Below, piece after piece: positions 1,424-13,884 of a DNA stretch of 64,000 bases; positions within the stretch are counted from its first letter, which is position 1, and each line of letters begins with the position of its first letter. The notes under the pieces are model-generated. The model was not told the origin of the DNA. It worked only from the letters and a program-made list of their open reading frames with translations, and did no database searches. This DNA is from Desulfobacula toluolica Tol2. GTDB lineage: Bacteria > Desulfobacterota > Desulfobacteria > Desulfobacterales > Desulfobacteraceae. A program made the position numbers and the translations under genes. The stretch covers positions 1,190,578-1,254,577 of the forward strand of contig NC_018645.1 of assembly GCF_000307105.1 (NCBI RefSeq), in the 5' to 3' direction.

Positions 1424-3514
1424 TTAGTTGGCTTTTGCCATTGGAAAATCAGTATCCGGGTTATAGCAGATCCTGCAGCAGTTCAAACATCTTTCCGATT
1501 CTTTGAGAGCCTGTTCTTCAGGTAGAACAAGATCAACTTCAATCATGGAATCAAGCCGCTGATCAACATGAATTTCCGGCATTTTTGCTCTGGGGCTCTT
1601 TTTGATACCATCCACTTTTGAAAAAATGGATTCTGGAATGTGCTTTTTCTGTAAAGAATTGGGTACCGGCTCAACAGGTTCACCTTTCAGGTGCAGATCA
1701 ATGGACCGGGCAGCACGTCTTCCGCCGCCAATAGCCTCTACAACAAGGGAAGCGCCAGTAGCTGAGTCGCCCCCTGTAAAAATATATGGTATTGAGGCCT
1801 GAAGAGTTGCCGGATCATTATCAATGGTATTCCATCTGGTTATTTCCAGTTCCTTCATCCTTGTATGGGGATCAAGTTCCTTAAAGGAGGTCTCCGGGGC
1901 CTGGCCAATGGCTGAAATAATCATGTCCACATCCAGAAGGGTTTCAGAACCTTCAATTGGCTCTGGGCGTCGTCTGCCGCTGGCATCCGGTTCTCCCAGC
2001 TGCATTTGAAGGTATTCAAGCTGGGTAACCTTGTTGTTGTCATCACCAACAACCCTTGTGGGCGCGGCCAGAAAAACAAATTCAATGCCTTCTTCCTCTG
2101 ATGCAACAATTTCAACTTCATTGGCAGGCATCTCTTTTCTGGTTCTTCGGTAAACCATGTAAACTTTTTCAAGACCAAGTCTTAAAAGAGTTCTGGCACA
2201 GTCAACAGCAGTATTTCCACCACCTACAACCGCAGCAGTTTTTCCCAGTTTGATTTTTTCACCGCCTGCAATTCTCTGCAGAAAGTTAATTCCGGTAAAA
2301 CAACCGTCCATGTTTTCGCCTTCAATGCCAAGGGTATAATCCTCCCAGGCACCAACGCCCAGAAATACCGCATTATAGCCCGAAGCCATCAAAGATCCCA
2401 GACCGAAATCAACACCGAATTTAACGTTACAGAACGACTTGATGCCCAGATCTAAAATTCCCTGGATTTCCCAATCCAGAACTTTTTTTGGAAGCCGGTA
2501 TTCAGGGATACCGTAACGGATCATGCCGCCGAGTTTGGGCATGGCTTCAAAAATATTGACTTCATGGCCCAGCCGTCGAAGGAAGAATGCGCAGGAAAGC
2601 CCGGCAGGCCCGCCACCGATAACGGCCACTTTTTTGCCTGTATCCGGTGCGCAGGTAATGGGAATCCTGGATCCTGAATTCATTTCATAATCAGCAGCAA
2701 ATCGTTTGAGCTGGTTAATGGAGACAGGCTCGTCTTCAATTCCCCTTCGGCACATATCCTCACAAGGATGGGGGCAGACCCTTCCACAGGCCAGGGGCAG
2801 TGGATTTCTCAGACGGATGGTCTGGACGGCTTCTTTGTATTTGCCTTCTTTGATCTGATTGATATATCTTGGAATATTGATTTCAGCAGGACAAGTCTGG
2901 GCACACGGTGCCAGAGGTGCATGCAGCTGATTAAATTCCATAAGTTTTTCAGAAAGGGTATTTACCTGGATAATGTCTTTCGGGCATGCCTGCTGACAGG
3001 CACCGCAACCGACACATTTGTTATCATCAACTACGGGAAAACCTTTGGGGCCAAGTTTGACAGCATCAAACTGGCACGCTTTTACGCAGTCGCCAAGGCC
3101 GATACATCCCACGCCGCAAACCCGTTTGCCTCCATACATGGCTGCCATGGCTTTACAGGAGGAAATTCCCATATAATGGTATTTATCATCTGCACGAAAA
3201 CCGCCTTCACACATATTGTAAGATAACGGGCTTTCAGCACTGCCTGCATCCACCCCCATTATTCTGGCAACTTTTTCCACATCTTCCTTGCCTGATACGA
3301 CACACAAAGAAGGTGGTTCAATGCCGTTTACAATGGCTTCGGCTGCGGCAGAGCATCCAGCATAACCGCAACCGCCACAGTTTGCTCCGGCAAGATTGTT
3401 TTCCACAAGTGCAATTCTTGGATCTTCATATACATAAAATATTTTGGATGAAAGGCTCAGGACAATACCGCAAAGGGCACCTATGCCTAACATGAACAAT
3501 AAAGCTGGGATCAT
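1424..3514 (-). CDS. rnfB: RnfB fused to a GltD/NfnB-like NAD(P)H flavoprotein
   Basis: Ferredoxin-side subunit of the Rnf ion-pumping complex with an unusual C-terminal extension: 696 residues, far longer than a plain RnfB of roughly 190-330. Order: one N-terminal membrane helix; a CxxCx4Cx16C Fe-S motif (Cys46, 49, 54, 71); two 4Fe-4S clusters (Cys133-147 and Cys167-177); a GltD-type N-terminal cysteine region (about 204-255); an FAD Rossmann motif VAVIGGGPAG (about 296-305); a second dinucleotide fold VVGGGNTAVD (about 429-438); the GGDSATG flavin-binding end; and a CLNCCRIC cysteine cluster near the C-terminus. The extension is homologous to glutamate synthase small subunit and to the NfnB large subunit. 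Last gene of the rnf operon. NADPH or NADH use by the extension is inferred. Confidence 0.93.
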   Translation of the reverse strand: MIPALLFMLGIGALCGIVLSLSSKIFYVYEDPRIALVENNLAGANCGGCGYAGCSAAAEAIVNGIEPPSLCVVSGKEDVEKVARIMGVDAGSAESPLSYNMCEGGFRADDKYHYMGISSCKAMAAMYGGKRVCGVGCIGLGDCVKACQFDAVKLGPKGFPVVDDNKCVGCGACQQACPKDIIQVNTLSEKLMEFNQLHAPLAPCAQTCPAEINIPRYINQIKEGKYKEAVQTIRLRNPLPLACGRVCPHPCEDMCRRGIEDEPVSINQLKRFAADYEMNSGSRIPITCAPDTGKKVAVIGGGPAGLSCAFFLRRLGHEVNIFEAMPKLGGMIRYGIPEYRLPKKVLDWEIQGILDLGIKSFCNVKFGVDFGLGSLMASGYNAVFLGVGAWEDYTLGIEGENMDGCFTGINFLQRIAGGEKIKLGKTAAVVGGGNTAVDCARTLLRLGLEKVYMVYRRTRKEMPANEVEIVASEEEGIEFVFLAAPTRVVGDDNNKVTQLEYLQMQLGEPDASGRRRPEPIEGSETLLDVDMIISAIGQAPETSFKELDPHTRMKELEITRWNTIDNDPATLQASIPYIFTGGDSATGASLVVEAIGGGRRAARSIDLHLKGEPVEPVPNSLQKKHIPESIFSKVDGIKKSPRAKMPEIHVDQRLDSMIEVDLVLPEEQALKESERCLNCCRICYNPDTDFPMAKAN

Positions 3515-3591
3515 AATATCACCTTATATTTTGAAATATTCCATATCCTTGGACATGAATCGCCTCAGCCTCAGGACTATTCCAATTTGTT

Positions 3592-4167
3592 TTAAACCAT
3601 TCCTTTAAAGGACATAAATGTCAATGCAATTATACCAGCTGTAACAAGGCCGATGGAGGTGTCCTGTAAGGGTTTGGGAACTCTTGCCAGGTTGATTCTT
3701 TCCCTGACGCCTGCAAAAAGGATAAGGGCAAGGCCGAAACCGACTGCATAGGCAAAGGAAGAAACAACAGCTTCAAGAAAAGAATACTCTTCTTTAATAT
3801 TGATTAGACAAACACCCATGACCGCACAATTTGTTGTAATGAGAGGCAGAAAAATTCCAAGCCCGGCATACAGGGCCGGAATGCTTTTTTTCAGGAACAT
3901 TTCAACAAATTGAACCAGGGATGCAATGACCAGGATAAAGGAAACCGTTCGCAAATATTCAACATTCAGCGCTTTTAACAGGTAAACATCCACTATCCAT
4001 GTGATGATACCAGCCATGACAAGGACAAAAACAACTGCCATTGACATGCCAACGGCAGTCTCCATTTTTTTGGATGTACCCAGAAAGGGACAGTTCCCAA
4101 GGAACTGGGCAAGGAGAATGTTGTTGATAAAGATACAGCTTATTGCAAGGACGAATAGATCACCCAT
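3592..4167 (-). CDS. rnfA: Rnf complex membrane subunit RnfA
   Basis: Integral membrane subunit of the Rnf complex, 191 residues, normal length, with six predicted membrane segments. The N-terminal ISCIFINNILLAQFLGNCPF stretch, with its cysteine in the LGNCPF turn, and the TNCAVMG segment (second conserved cysteine) match RnfA/NqrE, which hold an intramembrane iron centre between RnfA and RnfE. It lies 15 bases after rnfE and 77 bases before rnfB in the cytochrome-rnfCDGEAB operon. Assignment is secure. Confidence 0.96.
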   Translation of the reverse strand: MGDLFVLAISCIFINNILLAQFLGNCPFLGTSKKMETAVGMSMAVVFVLVMAGIITWIVDVYLLKALNVEYLRTVSFILVIASLVQFVEMFLKKSIPALYAGLGIFLPLITTNCAVMGVCLINIKEEYSFLEAVVSSFAYAVGFGLALILFAGVRERINLARVPKPLQDTSIGLVTAGIIALTFMSFKGMV

Positions 4168-4182
4168 AGTATTATCTCCTTT

Positions 4183-4791
4183 TTATTTTTTACCAATAAG
4201 GTTCATCATGCACAGCATCAGTCCAAGGCCGACAAACGCACCGGGTGCTTCAATCATGAATTGGAAAGGAAGAAAATTGGCTCCCATTTCAAAAACCGGA
4301 TTTCCTCCCCAGATGGTGATGGTTCCATTGCCTAAAAATTCTCTGACAGCTCCAAGGGCGGCAAGAGACAGGGTAAACCCGATACCGATACCAAGTCCGT
4401 CTGCAACGGACAGAACAGGTCCGTTTTTGCTGGCAAAGGCTTCTGCCCGGCCCAGAACGATACAGTTTACAACAATAAGCGGGATGAAAATACCCAGCTT
4501 CAGGAATAATTCATATGTATATGCCTGCATCATAAGCTCCACAATTGTAACAAAAGTAGCTATGATGACAATGAAACAGGCAATTCTGACTTTTGAGGGA
4601 ATAACGTTTCTGAGAAGAGATATTAAAAGGTTGGAGAAAACCAGAACAAAGGTGGTTGCAACACCCATCCCGATTCCGTTTTCAACCGATTTTGTTACAG
4701 CCAGGACCGGGCAAAGCCCCAATACCAGTCTGAAAGGAGGTATCTCAGCCCAGAGTCCTTTGGTAAATTCTTTTGCTAAGGATTGTGCCAT
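4183..4791 (-). CDS. rnfE: Rnf complex membrane subunit RnfE
   Basis: Paralogue and partner of RnfA, 202 residues, multi-spanning. It shows the family signature LVLGLCPVLAVT near residue 25 and IVVNCIVLGRAEAFA near residue 110; each carries one of the cysteines proposed to hold the shared Fe centre with RnfA. RnfA and RnfE are inverted-topology homologues, which the repeated L-G-x-C-P and N-C-x-V/L-x-G patterns reflect. It sits 28 bases downstream of rnfG and 15 bases upstream of rnfA on the minus strand. Assignment is secure. Confidence 0.96.
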   Translation of the reverse strand: MAQSLAKEFTKGLWAEIPPFRLVLGLCPVLAVTKSVENGIGMGVATTFVLVFSNLLISLLRNVIPSKVRIACFIVIIATFVTIVELMMQAYTYELFLKLGIFIPLIVVNCIVLGRAEAFASKNGPVLSVADGLGIGIGFTLSLAALGAVREFLGNGTITIWGGNPVFEMGANFLPFQFMIEAPGAFVGLGLMLCMMNLIGKK

Positions 4792-4819
4792 AGTATAGTT
4801 TCTCCTAAAATAGTTCGCC

Positions 4820-5401
4820 TTATTTCATCTGTTTGACAATTTCAGGTTTAAGTTTCTGATAGATTTGCTTTGCCTGGATTGCCGCAATACTGAGTCCTTT
4901 TGATGTAACCGTTGCACCTGACATGGCATCAATTGAGCCGCCATCGCCTTTTAGGGCAAAATTTGAGTCCATTGCAAGACCTGAAAATTGAGAGACAAAG
5001 GAAAGATCCTCTTTAGCTCTTGATCCGATTCCAGGGGTTTCAGCATGCGTGGTTACCCGAACGTCGATGATTTTATCCGTATCCAGGTTTATGCCTACCA
5101 TAAGGCCGATGGGGCCTCCAAAGGCAGAACCCTTTGTCTCAAAAGCAACCGCTTTTGAACCGTCGGCAAGAAGACTCGGGAAAACCTGCAATTCAATGTC
5201 GTCAGCTTTGATCGTAAACCTTTCCGCCAATGGATCATTGGTTACTTCTGGAAATATATCTTTAATGGCCGGTGCTTTCTGAAATTTCAAGACCTGATTT
5301 TCAATTTGAAGCTCGGTTCCCGATTGAACGGCAGCAAGCAGTCCACCGGAAACAGCGGTCAATACTGTTAAAACAACAATCATACTAATCATTTCACGCA
5401 T
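4820..5401 (-). CDS. rnfG: Rnf complex flavoprotein RnfG
   Basis: Periplasmic-side subunit with a covalently bound FMN, 193 residues. One N-terminal membrane anchor is followed by a soluble FMN-binding domain. The flavinylation motif is SGATVTS at residues 161-167, with Thr164 the expected phosphodiester-linked residue; attachment needs the flavin transferase ApbE, which is not in the window. The start overlaps the end of rnfD by 8 bases, suggesting translational coupling. The motif ETPGIGSRA, conserved in RnfG/NqrC, is also present. Confidence 0.95.
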   Translation of the reverse strand: MREMISMIVVLTVLTAVSGGLLAAVQSGTELQIENQVLKFQKAPAIKDIFPEVTNDPLAERFTIKADDIELQVFPSLLADGSKAVAFETKGSAFGGPIGLMVGINLDTDKIIDVRVTTHAETPGIGSRAKEDLSFVSQFSGLAMDSNFALKGDGGSIDAMSGATVTSKGLSIAAIQAKQIYQKLKPEIVKQMK

Positions 5402-6362
5402 TGGTTACACCCTTTCCCAAAACTTTTGGTCTAATTGTGTCGATGAGGGGGTTCACAAGGTTCAATAACAAGATTGCCAATACAGTACCATCCTCATAAA
5501 CACCGATGTTTCTCATAAGGATGATCATTACCGCAGCAAAAAATCCGTAAAGCAACATGGGAATCTTGTTTGCCGGTGAGGATGAATTCTCAGTAGCAAG
5601 GAAGAAGGCACCCAGCAGCGTATATCCTGAAAACAGATGGATCATTGGGCCGGCATAGGTGTCAGGGTTTGCCATGTTGAAAAAAAAGGCGCTGACAATA
5701 ATGCCCACGATAAAGGAAATTGAAATTTCCCAGCGGATATATCCCTTTAAAATCAAATAAATCCCGCCGATAATCAGGCCCAGTCCAAAGGTGGACCCGA
5801 TGGCACCCACCTGCTTGCCCATAATAAGATCACCCATGGGGAACAGATCTGCAACCGCAGATGCTCCCTGGAATTTGAGGGCTGCCAGTGGTGCCAGTGC
5901 TGTAAAACCAAATTCATAATCAACATATGCTGCATCAAAATCGAAAAGGGTTTTCCAGGAAAGCATCAAAAAGGCCATTCCCACAAGTGTCGGGTTGAAA
6001 GGATTTGCGCCGATACCGCCGAAAATTGTTTTTCCGATAACGACGGCTACAAATGTTCCGGTAATGACAAACCACCAAGGGGAGGTAGCCGGAAGCATCA
6101 TTCCAAAAAGAAGCCCGATAACGGCAGCATCCAGATCGCCGATGGTGAGTTTCTTTTTGGACACAAGATTCATGATAAGTTCCCAGATCATGGCACTGGA
6201 AAGAGACAGTGAAAGTACACCAAAGGCTGGTGCGCCGAACTGAATAATCCCGAAAAGGATTGCCGGAATTGTGGCAATCATTATATTCAGGTTCATTTGA
6301 AAAAGACTGTCTCCATCGTGCCAGAAAGGAGCATGGGATACTGTTAATTTGTAATTATTCAT
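5394..6362 (-). CDS. rnfD: Rnf complex membrane flavoprotein RnfD
   Basis: Multi-spanning subunit of the Rnf/NQR B-D family, 322 residues from the chosen start. The ATG at 6362 is used rather than an upstream TTG at 6380, because a GGAG ribosome site sits 8 bases before it and it begins just after the rnfC stop. The GIGANPFNPTLVGMAF segment is diagnostic. The covalent FMN threonine is probably Thr154 in GFTALAPL, the place of the SGATPL motif of well-studied RnfD proteins, though the flanking residues are diverged. Part of the cytochrome-rnfCDGEAB operon. Confidence 0.95.
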   Translation of the reverse strand: MNNYKLTVSHAPFWHDGDSLFQMNLNIMIATIPAILFGIIQFGAPAFGVLSLSLSSAMIWELIMNLVSKKKLTIGDLDAAVIGLLFGMMLPATSPWWFVITGTFVAVVIGKTIFGGIGANPFNPTLVGMAFLMLSWKTLFDFDAAYVDYEFGFTALAPLAALKFQGASAVADLFPMGDLIMGKQVGAIGSTFGLGLIIGGIYLILKGYIRWEISISFIVGIIVSAFFFNMANPDTYAGPMIHLFSGYTLLGAFFLATENSSSPANKIPMLLYGFFAAVMIILMRNIGVYEDGTVLAILLLNLVNPLIDTIRPKVLGKGVTNA

Positions 6363-6376
6363 TCGCAGTCTCCATT

Positions 6377-7639
6377 TCAAGCATCTGCTCTAAGTTTAAA
6401 AAGCTCATGTTTTCCCAGTCGGATGTATTGGAATATGGGTATCCTTGCGGTGCATACATAAGAACAAAGACCGCATTCAATACAAGACTCAAGATCATAT
6501 TTGTCGGCGGCCTCTTCATACTGGTCCGCTTCAAGATATCGGACAAGGATGTTCACCGGAATATTGACAGGGCAGATCCGCAGGCATTTGCCGCAATTGA
6601 CGCAGGGATTGTCGGATAATTCAGGTATTGTTTTTTTGTCTTGAATAATTACCGTATCCATATCCGGTTGGACAGGATGATGAGGGGTAAATGTTGAAAA
6701 TCCCTTCATGGGTCCACCGATGATAATTCTGTCCTTTTCACTGACATTAAGGTTGAAGGCATCAAAAATTTTGCGTATCGGCGTTCCAATGGTTGCCTTG
6801 ACCCTGTATTTAATTCCCTGTTTTCCAATAATTGTCAGAATCTTTTCAAATCCGGCAGACTTTGTTTTGTATGCTTTACCCAGAGAGACCGCAGCTTCGG
6901 CGCTGATAAAGCAGACCCCAATATCTTCCGGTGTTTTTCCAGGTGGGAGTGCTAAGTCTAAATGGTCTTTTAAAATCATTGCCGGTAAATTGGAAGGATA
7001 TTCAGTTGAGGTTTTCAATACTTGAATTGCATCAAATCCTCCTTGAATATTAATGTTTTCCGGGACTGTGACACACAGTTTTGTCACATTAGTTATGTCC
7101 TTTAAAATTTGGGCACCTTGTTTTAGCTCATCCAAAAATTTAGAGGCTACATACTGGTTGGTTGTGGATAAAAGATCTGTATCACCACAGGTAATGACAA
7201 TGGTATCAATTCTTGTGTCATCATTTGCAAGCAGTTTAAGTGGCGGAGCCCCCGGCAGTGTTCTCAAGTATTCATCAGCAGAGGCAATATTATCTTTTAA
7301 ATCATATGTTATCTGGTTTGTCTGGGTTTGATCATTTTTGATAACAAGATAAGTTGATGTGTTGCCAAAAACATCTGAATAGGTGTCTATGGTGTTAATA
7401 GTTCCTGATACAGGCGATATTGTGTACTCGGTGCTGTCAGTATAAAGATAGAGTTTTTCTCCCTTTTCAACAGTGTTGCCTTTTTTTATTAAAGCTTCTT
7501 TTGTGCTGTTAATGGGCTCATTTAATAATAAAATAAGGTTGGACGGAACAGGGATTAACTCAGGCTCTTTAGGATCCGGTTCCACAAGATCATAGTTAAG
7601 CCTTGGTTGGGTTAACGTGAAAAAAGATCGTTTAATCAT
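6377..7639 (-). CDS. rnfC: RnfC without the usual NADH-site motif
   Basis: Peripheral subunit of the Rnf complex, 420 residues. The N-terminal barrel-sandwich domain (about 30-110) and the C-terminal pair of 4Fe-4S motifs (Cys346-349-352-356 and Cys386-389-392-396) are intact. The central part is odd: the glycine-rich GLGGAxFPT loop and the following NGAECEP segment, which bind FMN and NADH in RnfC and NuoF, are not seen. In their place are a short GAPPLKLL and TCGDTDLLST (about 131-160). Seen: motif absence. Inferred: this RnfC may not oxidise NADH, matching the nucleotide-binding extension on RnfB. Start ATG at 7639; first rnf gene after the cytochrome. Confidence 0.93.
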   Translation of the reverse strand: MIKRSFFTLTQPRLNYDLVEPDPKEPELIPVPSNLILLLNEPINSTKEALIKKGNTVEKGEKLYLYTDSTEYTISPVSGTINTIDTYSDVFGNTSTYLVIKNDQTQTNQITYDLKDNIASADEYLRTLPGAPPLKLLANDDTRIDTIVITCGDTDLLSTTNQYVASKFLDELKQGAQILKDITNVTKLCVTVPENINIQGGFDAIQVLKTSTEYPSNLPAMILKDHLDLALPPGKTPEDIGVCFISAEAAVSLGKAYKTKSAGFEKILTIIGKQGIKYRVKATIGTPIRKIFDAFNLNVSEKDRIIIGGPMKGFSTFTPHHPVQPDMDTVIIQDKKTIPELSDNPCVNCGKCLRICPVNIPVNILVRYLEADQYEEAADKYDLESCIECGLCSYVCTARIPIFQYIRLGKHELFKLRADA

Positions 7640-7669: not shown

Positions 7670-7730
7670 TCATTCATTATATATAGTAAGATTTAAGATG
7701 TTAAAATCTTAAATTGACTATAATGAATGA
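7670..7730 (-). repeat. Long inverted repeat between cytochrome gene and rnfC
   Basis: An imperfect stem of about 25-30 bp. The inner core is a perfect 9-bp arm pair (7691-7699 with 7706-7714), and the outer arms share TCATTCATTATA. The outer right arm overlaps the last codons of the tetraheme cytochrome gene. There is no U tract on the minus strand after it, so it is more likely an mRNA stability or partial-attenuation element than a full terminator. Confidence 0.55.
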
Positions 7731-8083
7731 CACGAATTACATTCTACCGGACCTGCGCCAAGGTCTTCATGGCATCCCTTACACTGAGCATGAAATGCGT
7801 CAGCTCTCGATGGCAAGTCTTCATCACCTGTTTCTTCATGGCACTCACTGCAGTTGTAGGTTTCATCATCTTCAATGTTGTGATGGCAGTCCAGACAATC
7901 CTGGGTATAATCGTCTGAGTGTACCGAATGGGTGAATAAAACTTTACCGGCTTTGTTCTGAAACATCATCCTTACTGGATTTTCAGGTACAGGGGAGGTA
8001 AAAGAGGCATAGCATATAATCCCTGTGATCAAAAATATGATCATGATATATATGGCTATTTTTAGGTCTCGTTGTGATGTCAT
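7718..8083 (-). CDS. Membrane-anchored tetraheme cytochrome c
   Basis: 121 residues with an N-terminal uncleaved signal or anchor (about 8-28) and four CxxCH heme motifs (CLDCH 63-67, CSECH 78-82, CKGCH 101-105, CNSCH 115-119), plus extra histidines suitable as distal ligands, as in class III cytochromes. It is the first gene of the leftward rnf operon, 78 bases before rnfC, and a sigma-70-like promoter lies upstream (8144-8172). Rnf clusters with a multiheme cytochrome are known from Methanosarcina (MmcA) and some sulfate reducers. Inference: it exchanges electrons between Rnf and periplasmic cytochrome pools. Confidence 0.9.
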   Translation of the reverse strand: MTSQRDLKIAIYIMIIFLITGIICYASFTSPVPENPVRMMFQNKAGKVLFTHSVHSDDYTQDCLDCHHNIEDDETYNCSECHEETGDEDLPSRADAFHAQCKGCHEDLGAGPVECNSCHSL

Positions 8084-8185: not shown

Positions 8186-8647
8186 TTAAGGCATGGAACA
8201 AGCGGTTGGAATAACTTGTGATTTTTTTCTGACAAGAAAGGGTTTATACTCTTCTCGATTCGCAAGCGAGTTGTTTTTTTTTCGAATAAAATAAAAAGAG
8301 AGTCCAAAAAAGAAAAATCCTGAAATCATGGAAACAAGGGATGGATTCATTTGAAAATAGGGTGCAAGGCTATTGCCGATGACAGCACCGATGGTCAATA
8401 AAATGATGGGGAACACATATAAAAGAAATGTCAAAAAAAGAATGGGCTTTGTTTCCAATCCAATGATCACATGATCCCCTTTTTTAACATCAAGGGTGTT
8501 TTTAACTGTAACGGTGATCTCTTTTTTATTGTCTCCTGCTCCGCAGCTTTCCCTGGAAGCACAGGCCTCACAGGCACCGGATCGGGTTGTTGTTATCCAG
8601 GCAGTGGACTTGTCTGCATTTGTGACTATTCCGTTTTCAGTAATCAT
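8186..8647 (-). CDS. rseC: RseC/MucC family protein (SoxR-reducing system type)
   Basis: 153 residues. An N-terminal cytoplasmic part with a cysteine cluster SGACEACASRESCG (about 23-36) is followed by two membrane helices (about 69-90 and 105-123) and a short charged tail. This is the architecture of RseC, found in Rsx/Rnf-associated SoxR reduction in enterics and as a sigma-E modulator. It lies directly upstream of the cytochrome-rnf operon on the same strand, as rseC-type genes often do near rnf. Here it may help redox maturation or signalling of Rnf (inference). Confidence 0.85.
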   Translation of the reverse strand: MITENGIVTNADKSTAWITTTRSGACEACASRESCGAGDNKKEITVTVKNTLDVKKGDHVIIGLETKPILFLTFLLYVFPIILLTIGAVIGNSLAPYFQMNPSLVSMISGFFFFGLSFYFIRKKNNSLANREEYKPFLVRKKSQVIPTACSMP

Positions 8648-12687: not shown

Positions 12688-12717
12688 ATGATAACGCCAA
12701 TAGCCAGGAGGATAATT

Positions 12718-13884
12718 ATGCTTGAACTTGCTTTAAAAGGTAACAGGACTTATTGGATATGGATGGTAGGATTACTGGCTGTCATGGGAGCCGGTGCATT
12801 CTATTATGCGGATCAGCTTAAATACGGATTGATGGTAACCGGTCAAAGCCGTGATGTATCATGGGGTTTTTATACTGCCCAGATGACTTATTTTGTCGGT
12901 GTGGCAGCTGGCGGGGTGATGCTCGTGCTGCCGTATTATCTGCATAACTATAAAAAATTTGGTAAAATCACGATTTTGGGTGAATTTTTAGCTGTTGCGT
13001 CCATAGTCATGTGCCTGCTTTATCTTCTGGTTCACCTTGGGCAACCCATGCGGGCTTTAAATGTTTTTTTATATCCAACCCCTGGTTCCATGCTTTTCTG
13101 GGATGGCAATGTCTTGTTTGGATATCTTGTATTAAACATTATTATCGGATGGAATGTTCTTGAAGCGGAACGTAATGACTCCTCTCCGCCGGTATGGATC
13201 AAGCCGTTAATTTATCTGTCTATTCCTATGGCTTTTTCCATTCATACGGTTACCGCCTTTATTTATTGTGGCCTGCCGGGAAGAGGCTTCTGGCTGACAG
13301 CTGTTTTAGCTCCAAGATTTTTAGCCTCTGCATTTGCAGCTGGCCCAGCCATCTTGATCCTGTTGTGCATGTTTGTCCGGAAAATGACCCAATTCGATCC
13401 AGGTAAAGAGGCCATCCACACCCTTGCCCTGATTGTTGCCTATGGTCTTATCGCCAATGTTTTTTTTCTTTTCTGCGAAGTGTTTGTGGTTTTTTATTCA
13501 GGGATTCCATCCCACATGGATCATATCAAATATCTGTATGTCGGTCTGCATGGCCACAGTGTTTTAGTGCCCTGGATGTGGACTTCGGTTTTTTGCATGG
13601 GACTTGCCATTGTTCTTCTGGTCATCCCGAGGACAAGAAAGAACAGTGTTATCCTGTTTTTTTCCTGCATCCTTGTTTTTGTCGGCACTTGGATTGATAA
13701 AGGTCTTGGCATGATTGCCGGCGGATTTGTGCCCTCGGCCCTGCACCATGTCACAGAATATGTACCCACAATGCACGAACTTATTATCTCAGCCGGTGTG
13801 ACTGCCATTGGAGTGTTTATTCTGACCGTATTGTTTAAGATTACCATCAGTATAAAGGTGTATAATCAGTCAGAAAAAATATAA
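12718..13884 (+). CDS. NrfD/DsrP-family quinone-interacting membrane protein, orphan
   Basis: 388 residues with about ten membrane helices. The ATG at 12718 has a strong GGAGG site (12706-12710); an in-frame ATG at 12688 has none and falls at the end of the repeat. The sequence has the NrfD/PsrC pattern, and the last third (DKGLGMIAGGFVP then EYVPTMHE) looks like DsrP, the membrane subunit of DsrMKJOP, which moves electrons between menaquinone and the sulfite reductase DsrC. No DsrM, K, J, O or other Fe-S or molybdopterin partner gene is adjacent, so the partner must be elsewhere. Convergent with trmL. The family call is secure; DsrP itself is likely but not certain. Confidence 0.85.
   Translation: MLELALKGNRTYWIWMVGLLAVMGAGAFYYADQLKYGLMVTGQSRDVSWGFYTAQMTYFVGVAAGGVMLVLPYYLHNYKKFGKITILGEFLAVASIVMCLLYLLVHLGQPMRALNVFLYPTPGSMLFWDGNVLFGYLVLNIIIGWNVLEAERNDSSPPVWIKPLIYLSIPMAFSIHTVTAFIYCGLPGRGFWLTAVLAPRFLASAFAAGPAILILLCMFVRKMTQFDPGKEAIHTLALIVAYGLIANVFFLFCEVFVVFYSGIPSHMDHIKYLYVGLHGHSVLVPWMWTSVFCMGLAIVLLVIPRTRKNSVILFFSCILVFVGTWIDKGLGMIAGGFVPSALHHVTEYVPTMHELIISAGVTAIGVFILTVLFKITISIKVYNQSEKI

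Follow-up and report, generated by a model that had tools for sequence, protein, structure and literature searches.

A Tol2-type Rnf complex with eroded flavin sites in RnfC and RnfD and a GltD-type module in RnfB of Desulfobacula toluolica Tol2

A "different type" of Rnf complex was described by Doerries (2016) in Desulfobacula toluolica Tol2, with an RnfB of about 700 amino acids (aa) that carries NAD sites and an RnfC without NADH domains (PMC5109826). This Tol2-type Rnf was later named Rnf2, and it has been listed in the Desulfobacteraceae core genome and reported as constitutive in six strains (PMC11887813). Here we analysed a 64-kb stretch of the D. toluolica Tol2 genome, referred to as the window, whose rnf operon is of this Rnf2 type: its RnfB has about 700 aa and NAD sites, its RnfC lacks the NADH domains, and a cytochrome gene lies in the cluster. 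With the canonical Na+-Rnf of Acetobacterium woodii (9eri) and Clostridium tetanomorphum (7zc6) the window shares the six subunits, the cysteines of RnfA and RnfE, the covalent flavin mononucleotide (FMN) motif of RnfG and the ferredoxin domains FdI and FdII of RnfB; it differs in having neither the FMN/NADH site of RnfC nor the FMN site of RnfD, and in the replacement of the C-terminal ferredoxin part of RnfB by a GltD-type module. The loss of the RnfC site and the domain gain of RnfB are real and already described in print. As far as the literature could show, what is new is the loss of the RnfD flavin site, the separation of RnfC loss from RnfB gain, and a second RnfB type (type II) linked to formate dehydrogenase; the passages of the Rnf2 papers covered here mention neither of the first two, nor a second, decayed RnfB lineage.

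All genes of the operon are encoded on the minus strand, and their order is cytochrome-C-D-G-E-A-B, so that the full subunit set expected of any Rnf (rnfC, D, G, E, A, B) is found in one cluster. The product of rnfC (6377..7639) is a true RnfC by profile and by fold: it matches TIGR01945 at E=3.5e-52, yet under that model's cut-off, and its AlphaFold2 model (predicted local distance difference test score 90.8) has its best PDB matches in the RnfC chains of 8ahx, 9eri and 7zc6. Aligned with intact RnfCs, it shows a 7-column gap and unrelated residues at the G(L/M)GGAxFPT loop (residues 128-137, 7229..7258) and reads TCGDTDL at the NGAECEP position (residues 150-157, TCGDTDLL, 7169..7192), and the third conserved segment, YPQGAEK, is likewise gone. 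The FMN/NADH site of the canonical ferredoxin:NAD Rnf is absent. When columns at least 90% conserved among 45 intact RnfCs were considered, the window protein retained 26 of the 94 outside the iron-sulfur (Fe-S) domain vs 13 of the 15 within it, including all 8 Cys of the two [4Fe-4S] motifs (6452..6604). The original prediction, made from the sequence of this locus, had described just such an RnfC, with intact Fe-S motifs and without the loop and the NGAECEP segment.

That prediction also placed a GltD/NfnB-type flavoprotein in RnfB, which our analysis confirmed. The rnfB gene (1424..3514) codes for a membrane helix with FdI and FdII (residues ~1-191), a GltD/NfnL-type FAD/NAD(P)H module (~200-610) and a Cys tail. 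In terms of domains, the N-terminus matches PF04060, followed by Fer4_20 and by a flavoprotein that has the marks of the GltD/NfnL family, namely an N-terminal Fe-S domain, an intact FAD motif (VAVIGGGPAGL, residues 296-306, 2597..2629) and an intact NAD(P) site (VVGGGNTAVD, 429-438, to YRRTRKEMPA, 455-464; 2123..2230). The structures closest to the module are the GltD-type subunits of NfnABC (9bov, 9n5u), StnABC (8oh5) and NfnI (5jca), which share its fold, both nucleotide motifs, the N-terminal Fe-S cysteines and 38-40% identity over the aligned part; in contrast to them, the window module is fused to a membrane-anchored RnfB. The C-terminal Cys cluster, predicted as an extra feature, is present but not special, since similar RCLxC tails occur in the PDB relatives, and C676, C679 and C683 are invariant among 25 fused RnfBs. 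Matches to the window RnfB of at least 70% identity were counted by eye, fragments included, in 66 of 86 family genomes. A second, named set of loci consists of the best 80 of at least 595 stretches matching a fused-RnfB query, so that counts from it are biased to fused RnfBs; in it, the RnfB of a Desulfobacula contig is 84% identical to that of the window, L171, L190 and L230 have RnfC fragments, and the RnfB of L220 is cut by a contig end.

Comparative counts were taken from 114 loci, made up of 100 of 111 RnfG rows (L032-L131), 13 family loci (L133-L145) and the window. Ten further RnfG rows, G194 among them, were left out (several fragments or weak), and one more is the window itself; the 13 family loci were hand-picked from family genomes with a fused RnfB, which inflates the fused count. 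We call an RnfC degenerate when its FMN/NADH site is eroded. Both [4Fe-4S] motifs are present in 65/65 degenerate copies. An RnfC loss produced by chance or misalignment was rejected on these 65 copies, all of which have both motifs, and on the confident RnfC fold of the window protein.

The change that bears most directly on the electron path is one that the original prediction did not include, in RnfD (rnfD, 5394..6380, start probably at 6362, MNNYKL; TIGR01946 above cut-off). In C. tetanomorphum RnfD, Thr153 carries the FMN, with which Arg130 and Glu185, described as moderately conserved, make contact (PMC9588780); the flavinylated residue in A. woodii is Thr156 (PMC11889175). According to HMMER alignments, none of these three contact residues is conserved in the window, where the flavinylated Thr is replaced by Ala163 (328-aa numbering; 5892..5894), Arg130 by Met135 (5976..5978) and Glu185 by Ser196 (5793..5795). 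The Thr is missing in 54 of the 58 degenerate loci of the main clade and present in all 7 other degenerate and all 45 intact-RnfC loci. No more than 10% of the 58 clade loci keep the Arg, and the same holds for the Glu. Among the best-80 loci, the Thr is missing in 21/25 with a fused RnfB and retained in 13/13 with an intact RnfC. This flavin-site loss was not found in the passages of the Rnf literature covered here, supplements excepted.

RnfC loss and RnfB gain are separable. The original prediction had the nucleotide site moved from RnfC to RnfB, and part of this stands, as all 33 fused RnfBs of the 114 loci accompany a degenerate RnfC and none an intact one. A single event was rejected, since 17 loci have a degenerate RnfC in one operon with a plain RnfB; this is the pattern named in the first half of the prediction's own refutation test, that of the same RnfC motif loss beside a plain RnfB, which we looked for and found. 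Kept apart from these 17 is L041, with a degenerate RnfC, a plain RnfB on the opposite strand and a contig that ends after rnfG. For the other degenerate loci, no RnfB was found in 11 (the contigs of L055 and L057 stop less than 0.8 kb past rnfA) and 3 were undecided. Intact RnfCs occur with a plain RnfB in 44 loci and with none in 1; RnfC was cut in 1 locus and not found in 3. The best-80 set agrees: its 24 fused loci with an RnfC have only degenerate copies, two of them fragments, its 13 intact RnfCs all accompany a plain RnfB, and it adds the degenerate plain loci L220 (cut RnfB), L222 and L223, as well as the fragment in L230. Beside the plain RnfB, a separate GltD gene was found in none of the 18 degenerate loci labelled plain.

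The 17 degenerate plain loci fall into three places. In a tree of RnfD+G+E+A (FastTree with midpoint root, as for all trees here), two plain-RnfB groups holding 8 of them are sister to the fused groups; support at the joining node is 0.51, and therefore either one or two RnfC losses took place. Six of these 8 loci have 4-haem cytochromes, and one is Desulfofervidaceae by shared sequence (L075, group f45, has the contig of L223; likewise L059, f23, has that of L184, Desulfocarbo). Another 4 form the decahaem group f47, nested among the fused groups and showing the same RnfC and RnfD losses; it is probably Desulfovibrionaceae, judged from the DVU2794 model and the decahaem gene only. The remaining 5 (L083, L088, L092, L103, L105; f27/f42) lie elsewhere in the tree and combine a degenerate RnfC and plain RnfB with a retained RnfD Thr and no adjacent cytochrome. 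The sister groups keep 50-55 of the 94 conserved RnfC columns, vs 23-26 in f47 and 26 in the window, and this milder erosion fits a gradual decay. RnfC loss is probably older than RnfB gain.

Twelve genomes without an RnfB beside rnfA were searched for copies elsewhere. Fused type I copies were found in G300, G118, G278, G318, G119 and G301; the only fused copy was type II in G209 and G320, G153 had only a plain copy, G086 and G123 had weak copies, and this search found none in G280. In G320, rnfA is adjoined by a fragment of 121 aa, which points to an rnfB that is either broken or misassembled. At L056:10018-11418 a stand-alone GltD-type gene lies beside a cytochrome-type rnf cluster without rnfB, and a type I RnfB is found elsewhere in that genome (L150). 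Fused RnfBs with degenerate RnfCs also occur in bins assigned to UBP15, ADurb.Bin236, Spirochaetes and Aminicenantes (L179, L180, L195, L205), reflecting either inter-phylum transfer or mis-binned contigs.

The fused RnfBs themselves are of two types, separated in their tree with support of 1.0 and 0.999. FAD and NADP motifs are conserved clade-wide in type I, window included, vs largely decayed nucleotide motifs in type II, of which L046, L185 and L215 still satisfy a loose motif pattern. For the 33 operon copies, this amounts to intact motifs in 24 and a decayed nucleotide site in 9. The idea that the fused module is always active was rejected on these 9 copies, and they also speak against the module as a lasting substitute for the RnfC site. 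Five Fe-S cysteines of the module (Cys204, 208, 247, 251, 255) are invariant in an alignment that includes five type II RnfBs. Besides the type I RnfB of the operon, the window genome has a type II copy at ~1.42 Mb (~1,420,462-1,422,648; L132:8463-10649 +) whose NAD(P) site is decayed and which adjoins two in-frame segments of one molybdopterin oxidoreductase, probably an FdhA with selenocysteine. FdhA-like genes were found at 19/45 type II vs 0/47 type I loci (Fisher p = 1.1e-7, uncorrected for relatedness), a count made without six short type I loci (L149-L152, L155, L156) and the short fused copies L210 and L211; for type II copies inside an rnf cluster, such a gene is near 8 of 13. A literature search with RnfB-like and RnfB-homologue wording returned a single paper, which deals with copper monooxygenases.

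The outward limb of the complex is kept, as the covalent-FMN motif of RnfG is found in 57/58 clade loci, the RnfA Cys in 55/55 and the RnfE Cys in 53/57. In the window, rnfG (4820..5401; NF045876 and TIGR01947 above cut-off) has the motif SGATVTS at 4901-4921, and the expected cysteine pairs are present in the products of rnfA (3592..4167; TIGR01943 above cut-off), with Cys26 (NCPFL) and Cys114 (NCAVM), and rnfE (4183..4791; TIGR01948 above cut-off), with Cys27 (LCPVL) and Cys110 (NCIVL). The tetrahaem cytochrome that the original prediction set at the operon head is indeed linked to it: a gene at 7718..8083, just outside the range that the prediction covered, codes for a cytochrome c3-like protein (PF02085, E=1.3e-12) with four CxxCH motifs and an N-terminal hydrophobic segment, scoring 65.5 bits against the TmcA model, under the cut-off of 114. 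When loci with enough upstream sequence were counted (6 of 7 other degenerate and 43 of 45 intact loci), a cytochrome with at least 4 haems was found upstream of rnfC in 46/58 clade loci, 1/6 other degenerate loci and 0/43 intact loci.

The outward limb is intact and the return limb is hit at two flavin sites, the GltD module stands where the C-terminal ferredoxin part would be, and the cluster includes a gene for a periplasmic-type cytochrome; on these grounds, the most economical wiring would take NAD(P)H in at RnfB and deliver to the cytochrome at RnfG. The reading that we favour, tentatively, is that Rnf2 would be an NAD(P)H:cytochrome c oxidoreductase that pumps ions, with the cytochrome fed from RnfG and RnfC mainly a scaffold. 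NAD(P)H, more likely NADP(H) than NAD(H) if judged by family, would reduce an FAD held in the GltD module; electrons would cross the Fe-S clusters of the module and then FdII and FdI of RnfB to the cluster between RnfA and RnfE, where ion coupling would take place, and would continue through the covalent FMN of RnfG, at the periplasmic face, to the tetrahaem cytochrome. Two flavin sites would be disabled in the canonical return limb, which leads from RnfG through the RnfD FMN, riboflavin, the RnfC Fe-S clusters and FMN to NAD, and this is why RnfC would be mainly a scaffold. There is a precedent in the Rnf of Methanosarcina acetivorans, reported to have no NAD(P) reaction, whose RnfG has been proposed to hand electrons to cytochrome c (PMC4023990).

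Several points weigh against this proposal. Constant Fe-S motifs in RnfC are odd for a mere scaffold. No cytochrome of at least 4 haems was found within 1.5 kb upstream in 12/58 clade loci. Deletion of mmcA in M. acetivorans had little effect on acetate (PMC6703419), and deletion of the decahaem gene in Desulfovibrio alaskensis is likewise reported to have had little effect (cited in PMC4841214). The loss of the RnfD Thr need not block electron transfer, since Nqr/Rnf-like complexes that also lack it may use a non-covalent flavin (PMC11334425). These four points are the reason why we hold the proposal tentatively. In addition, a Thr in unusual context occupies the RnfD column in 4/58 clade loci, and since essentially a single clade shows the RnfC and RnfD changes, they stand for few independent events. 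Rnf2 has also been taken as a link between the NADH and ferredoxin pools (PMC11887813), and the RnfB of Thermotoga maritima has FdI only (PMC9588780), so that loss of FdIII need not exclude ferredoxin.

It is unlikely, in our estimation, that the U-shaped path survives by way of a non-covalent FMN in RnfD, riboflavin and the RnfC Fe-S clusters to another soluble carrier, such as ferredoxin, flavodoxin or a partner enzyme. In favour of it, all 65 degenerate RnfCs have their Fe-S motifs, and near the riboflavin the window RnfD retains the Asn124 equivalent and has Glu for Asp248; another electron partner of RnfC, in the words of Doerries (2016), "has to be identified" (PMC5109826). However, all three named FMN contacts of RnfD are lost in the window, and a look at the neighbourhood of the operon, made without a systematic test, revealed no conserved gene for a soluble partner.

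Ferredoxin might also still feed an RnfB that exchanges with NAD(P)H at the new module, perhaps bifurcating like the NfnL FAD, and with the cytochrome, which we regard as decidedly unlikely. FdI and FdII are retained, one NCBIfam RnfB model aligns as far as residue 259, the nearest structures are subunits of the bifurcating NfnABC, StnABC and NfnI, and the T. maritima case applies here too; ferredoxin may well serve those relatives in which RnfC loss goes with a plain RnfB. On the other hand, the alignment to solved canonical RnfB chains ends at residue 191 or 184, and the GltD module replaces RnfB beyond residue 195 of 7zc6_B, that is, the FdIII part of the FdII+III domain modelled as the ferredoxin docking place (PMC9588780). 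The ferredoxin entry at RnfB suggested by the original prediction is doubtful for this reason, and transfer from ferredoxin to NADP at RnfB would short-circuit the pump.

The proposed wiring could also run in reverse under a sufficient ion gradient, from cytochrome to NADP. That this is its role, with periplasmic electrons from H2 or formate pushed uphill through cytochrome c to reduce NADP at RnfB, seems improbable to us. For Desulfovibrio, a role that connects cytochromes of the periplasm with NAD(P)H or ferredoxin of the cytoplasm has been proposed (cited in PMC4287179), and Rnf mutants of D. alaskensis fail to grow on H2, but the fitness of its decahaem mutants is reported to be unaffected on H2, formate or ethanol (both cited in PMC4841214), and the fact that six strains make Rnf2 constitutively on many substrates does not favour it (PMC11887813). 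Very improbable is a GltD module reduced to a relic Fe-S relay, with no NAD(P)H role and another dehydrogenase docked there: type II RnfBs do keep most of the module Fe-S cysteines and often lie near FdhA-like genes, but type I conserves its FAD and NADP motifs over the whole clade. As an observation in its own right, the Fe-S motifs of the 65 degenerate RnfCs are conserved although the flavin sites before and after them have decayed, and none of these explanations covers it.

The wiring proposed for Rnf2 can be set beside other systems. The RnfB of M. acetivorans is presumably plain; its Rnf resembles that of the window in having a multihaem cytochrome, MmcA, in the cluster, a connection seen in the window as gene linkage, and differs in its ferredoxin donor. 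The Na+-translocating NADH:quinone oxidoreductase (NQR) likewise has an NAD(P)H-fed flavoprotein on the input side and a counterpart of RnfC, NqrA, that lost its own nucleotide site, in parallel and not by descent. In contrast, NqrF belongs to another flavoprotein family, so that the window input subunit, RnfB-GltD, is not an NqrF-type reductase; NqrB keeps its flavinylated Thr and NqrA lost the Fe-S clusters. The parallel is striking all the same: during NQR evolution the input side passed to an NADH flavoprotein and the sites of NqrA disappeared, with RnfB loss placed first (PMC4014512), whereas in the window clade RnfC decay probably came before RnfB gain.

Around the operon, a gene for an RseC/MucC-family protein (8186..8647, minus strand; PF04246, E=1.8e-32) precedes the cytochrome gene, and RseC-like open frames near rnf, judged by eye with no profile scan, also occur in L058, L060 and L061. 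A gene for an NrfD-family membrane protein (PF03916) lies nearby on the opposite strand, at 12688-13884 of the window. The window genome has one RnfD and one further RnfD/NqrB homologue, probably NqrB.

Since Rnf2 belongs to the reported core genome and is constitutive in six strains (PMC11887813), the energy balance of major marine sulfate reducers is set by the reaction that it carries out. Models in which Rnf2 exchanges ferredoxin with NADH would be wrong for these organisms if its return limb is dead. The complex of Desulfovibrionaceae is counted as Rnf1 (PMC11887813), a label to be set against the decahaem group, probably of that family, with the same RnfC and RnfD losses as Rnf2. It is possible, though on balance somewhat improbable, that a large Rnf clade, mainly of sulfate reducers, has dismantled its whole cytoplasmic return limb, with the FMN sites of RnfD and RnfC, and become an outward-only ion pump to periplasmic c-type cytochromes. 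Its two related inputs would be a type I RnfB that reads NAD(P)H and a type II RnfB that is blind to nucleotides and linked to formate dehydrogenase; the window genome has both, alongside a single Rnf core. If true, this would be a second and independent route by which, in parallel to NQR, a ferredoxin:NAD enzyme became a respiratory dehydrogenase.

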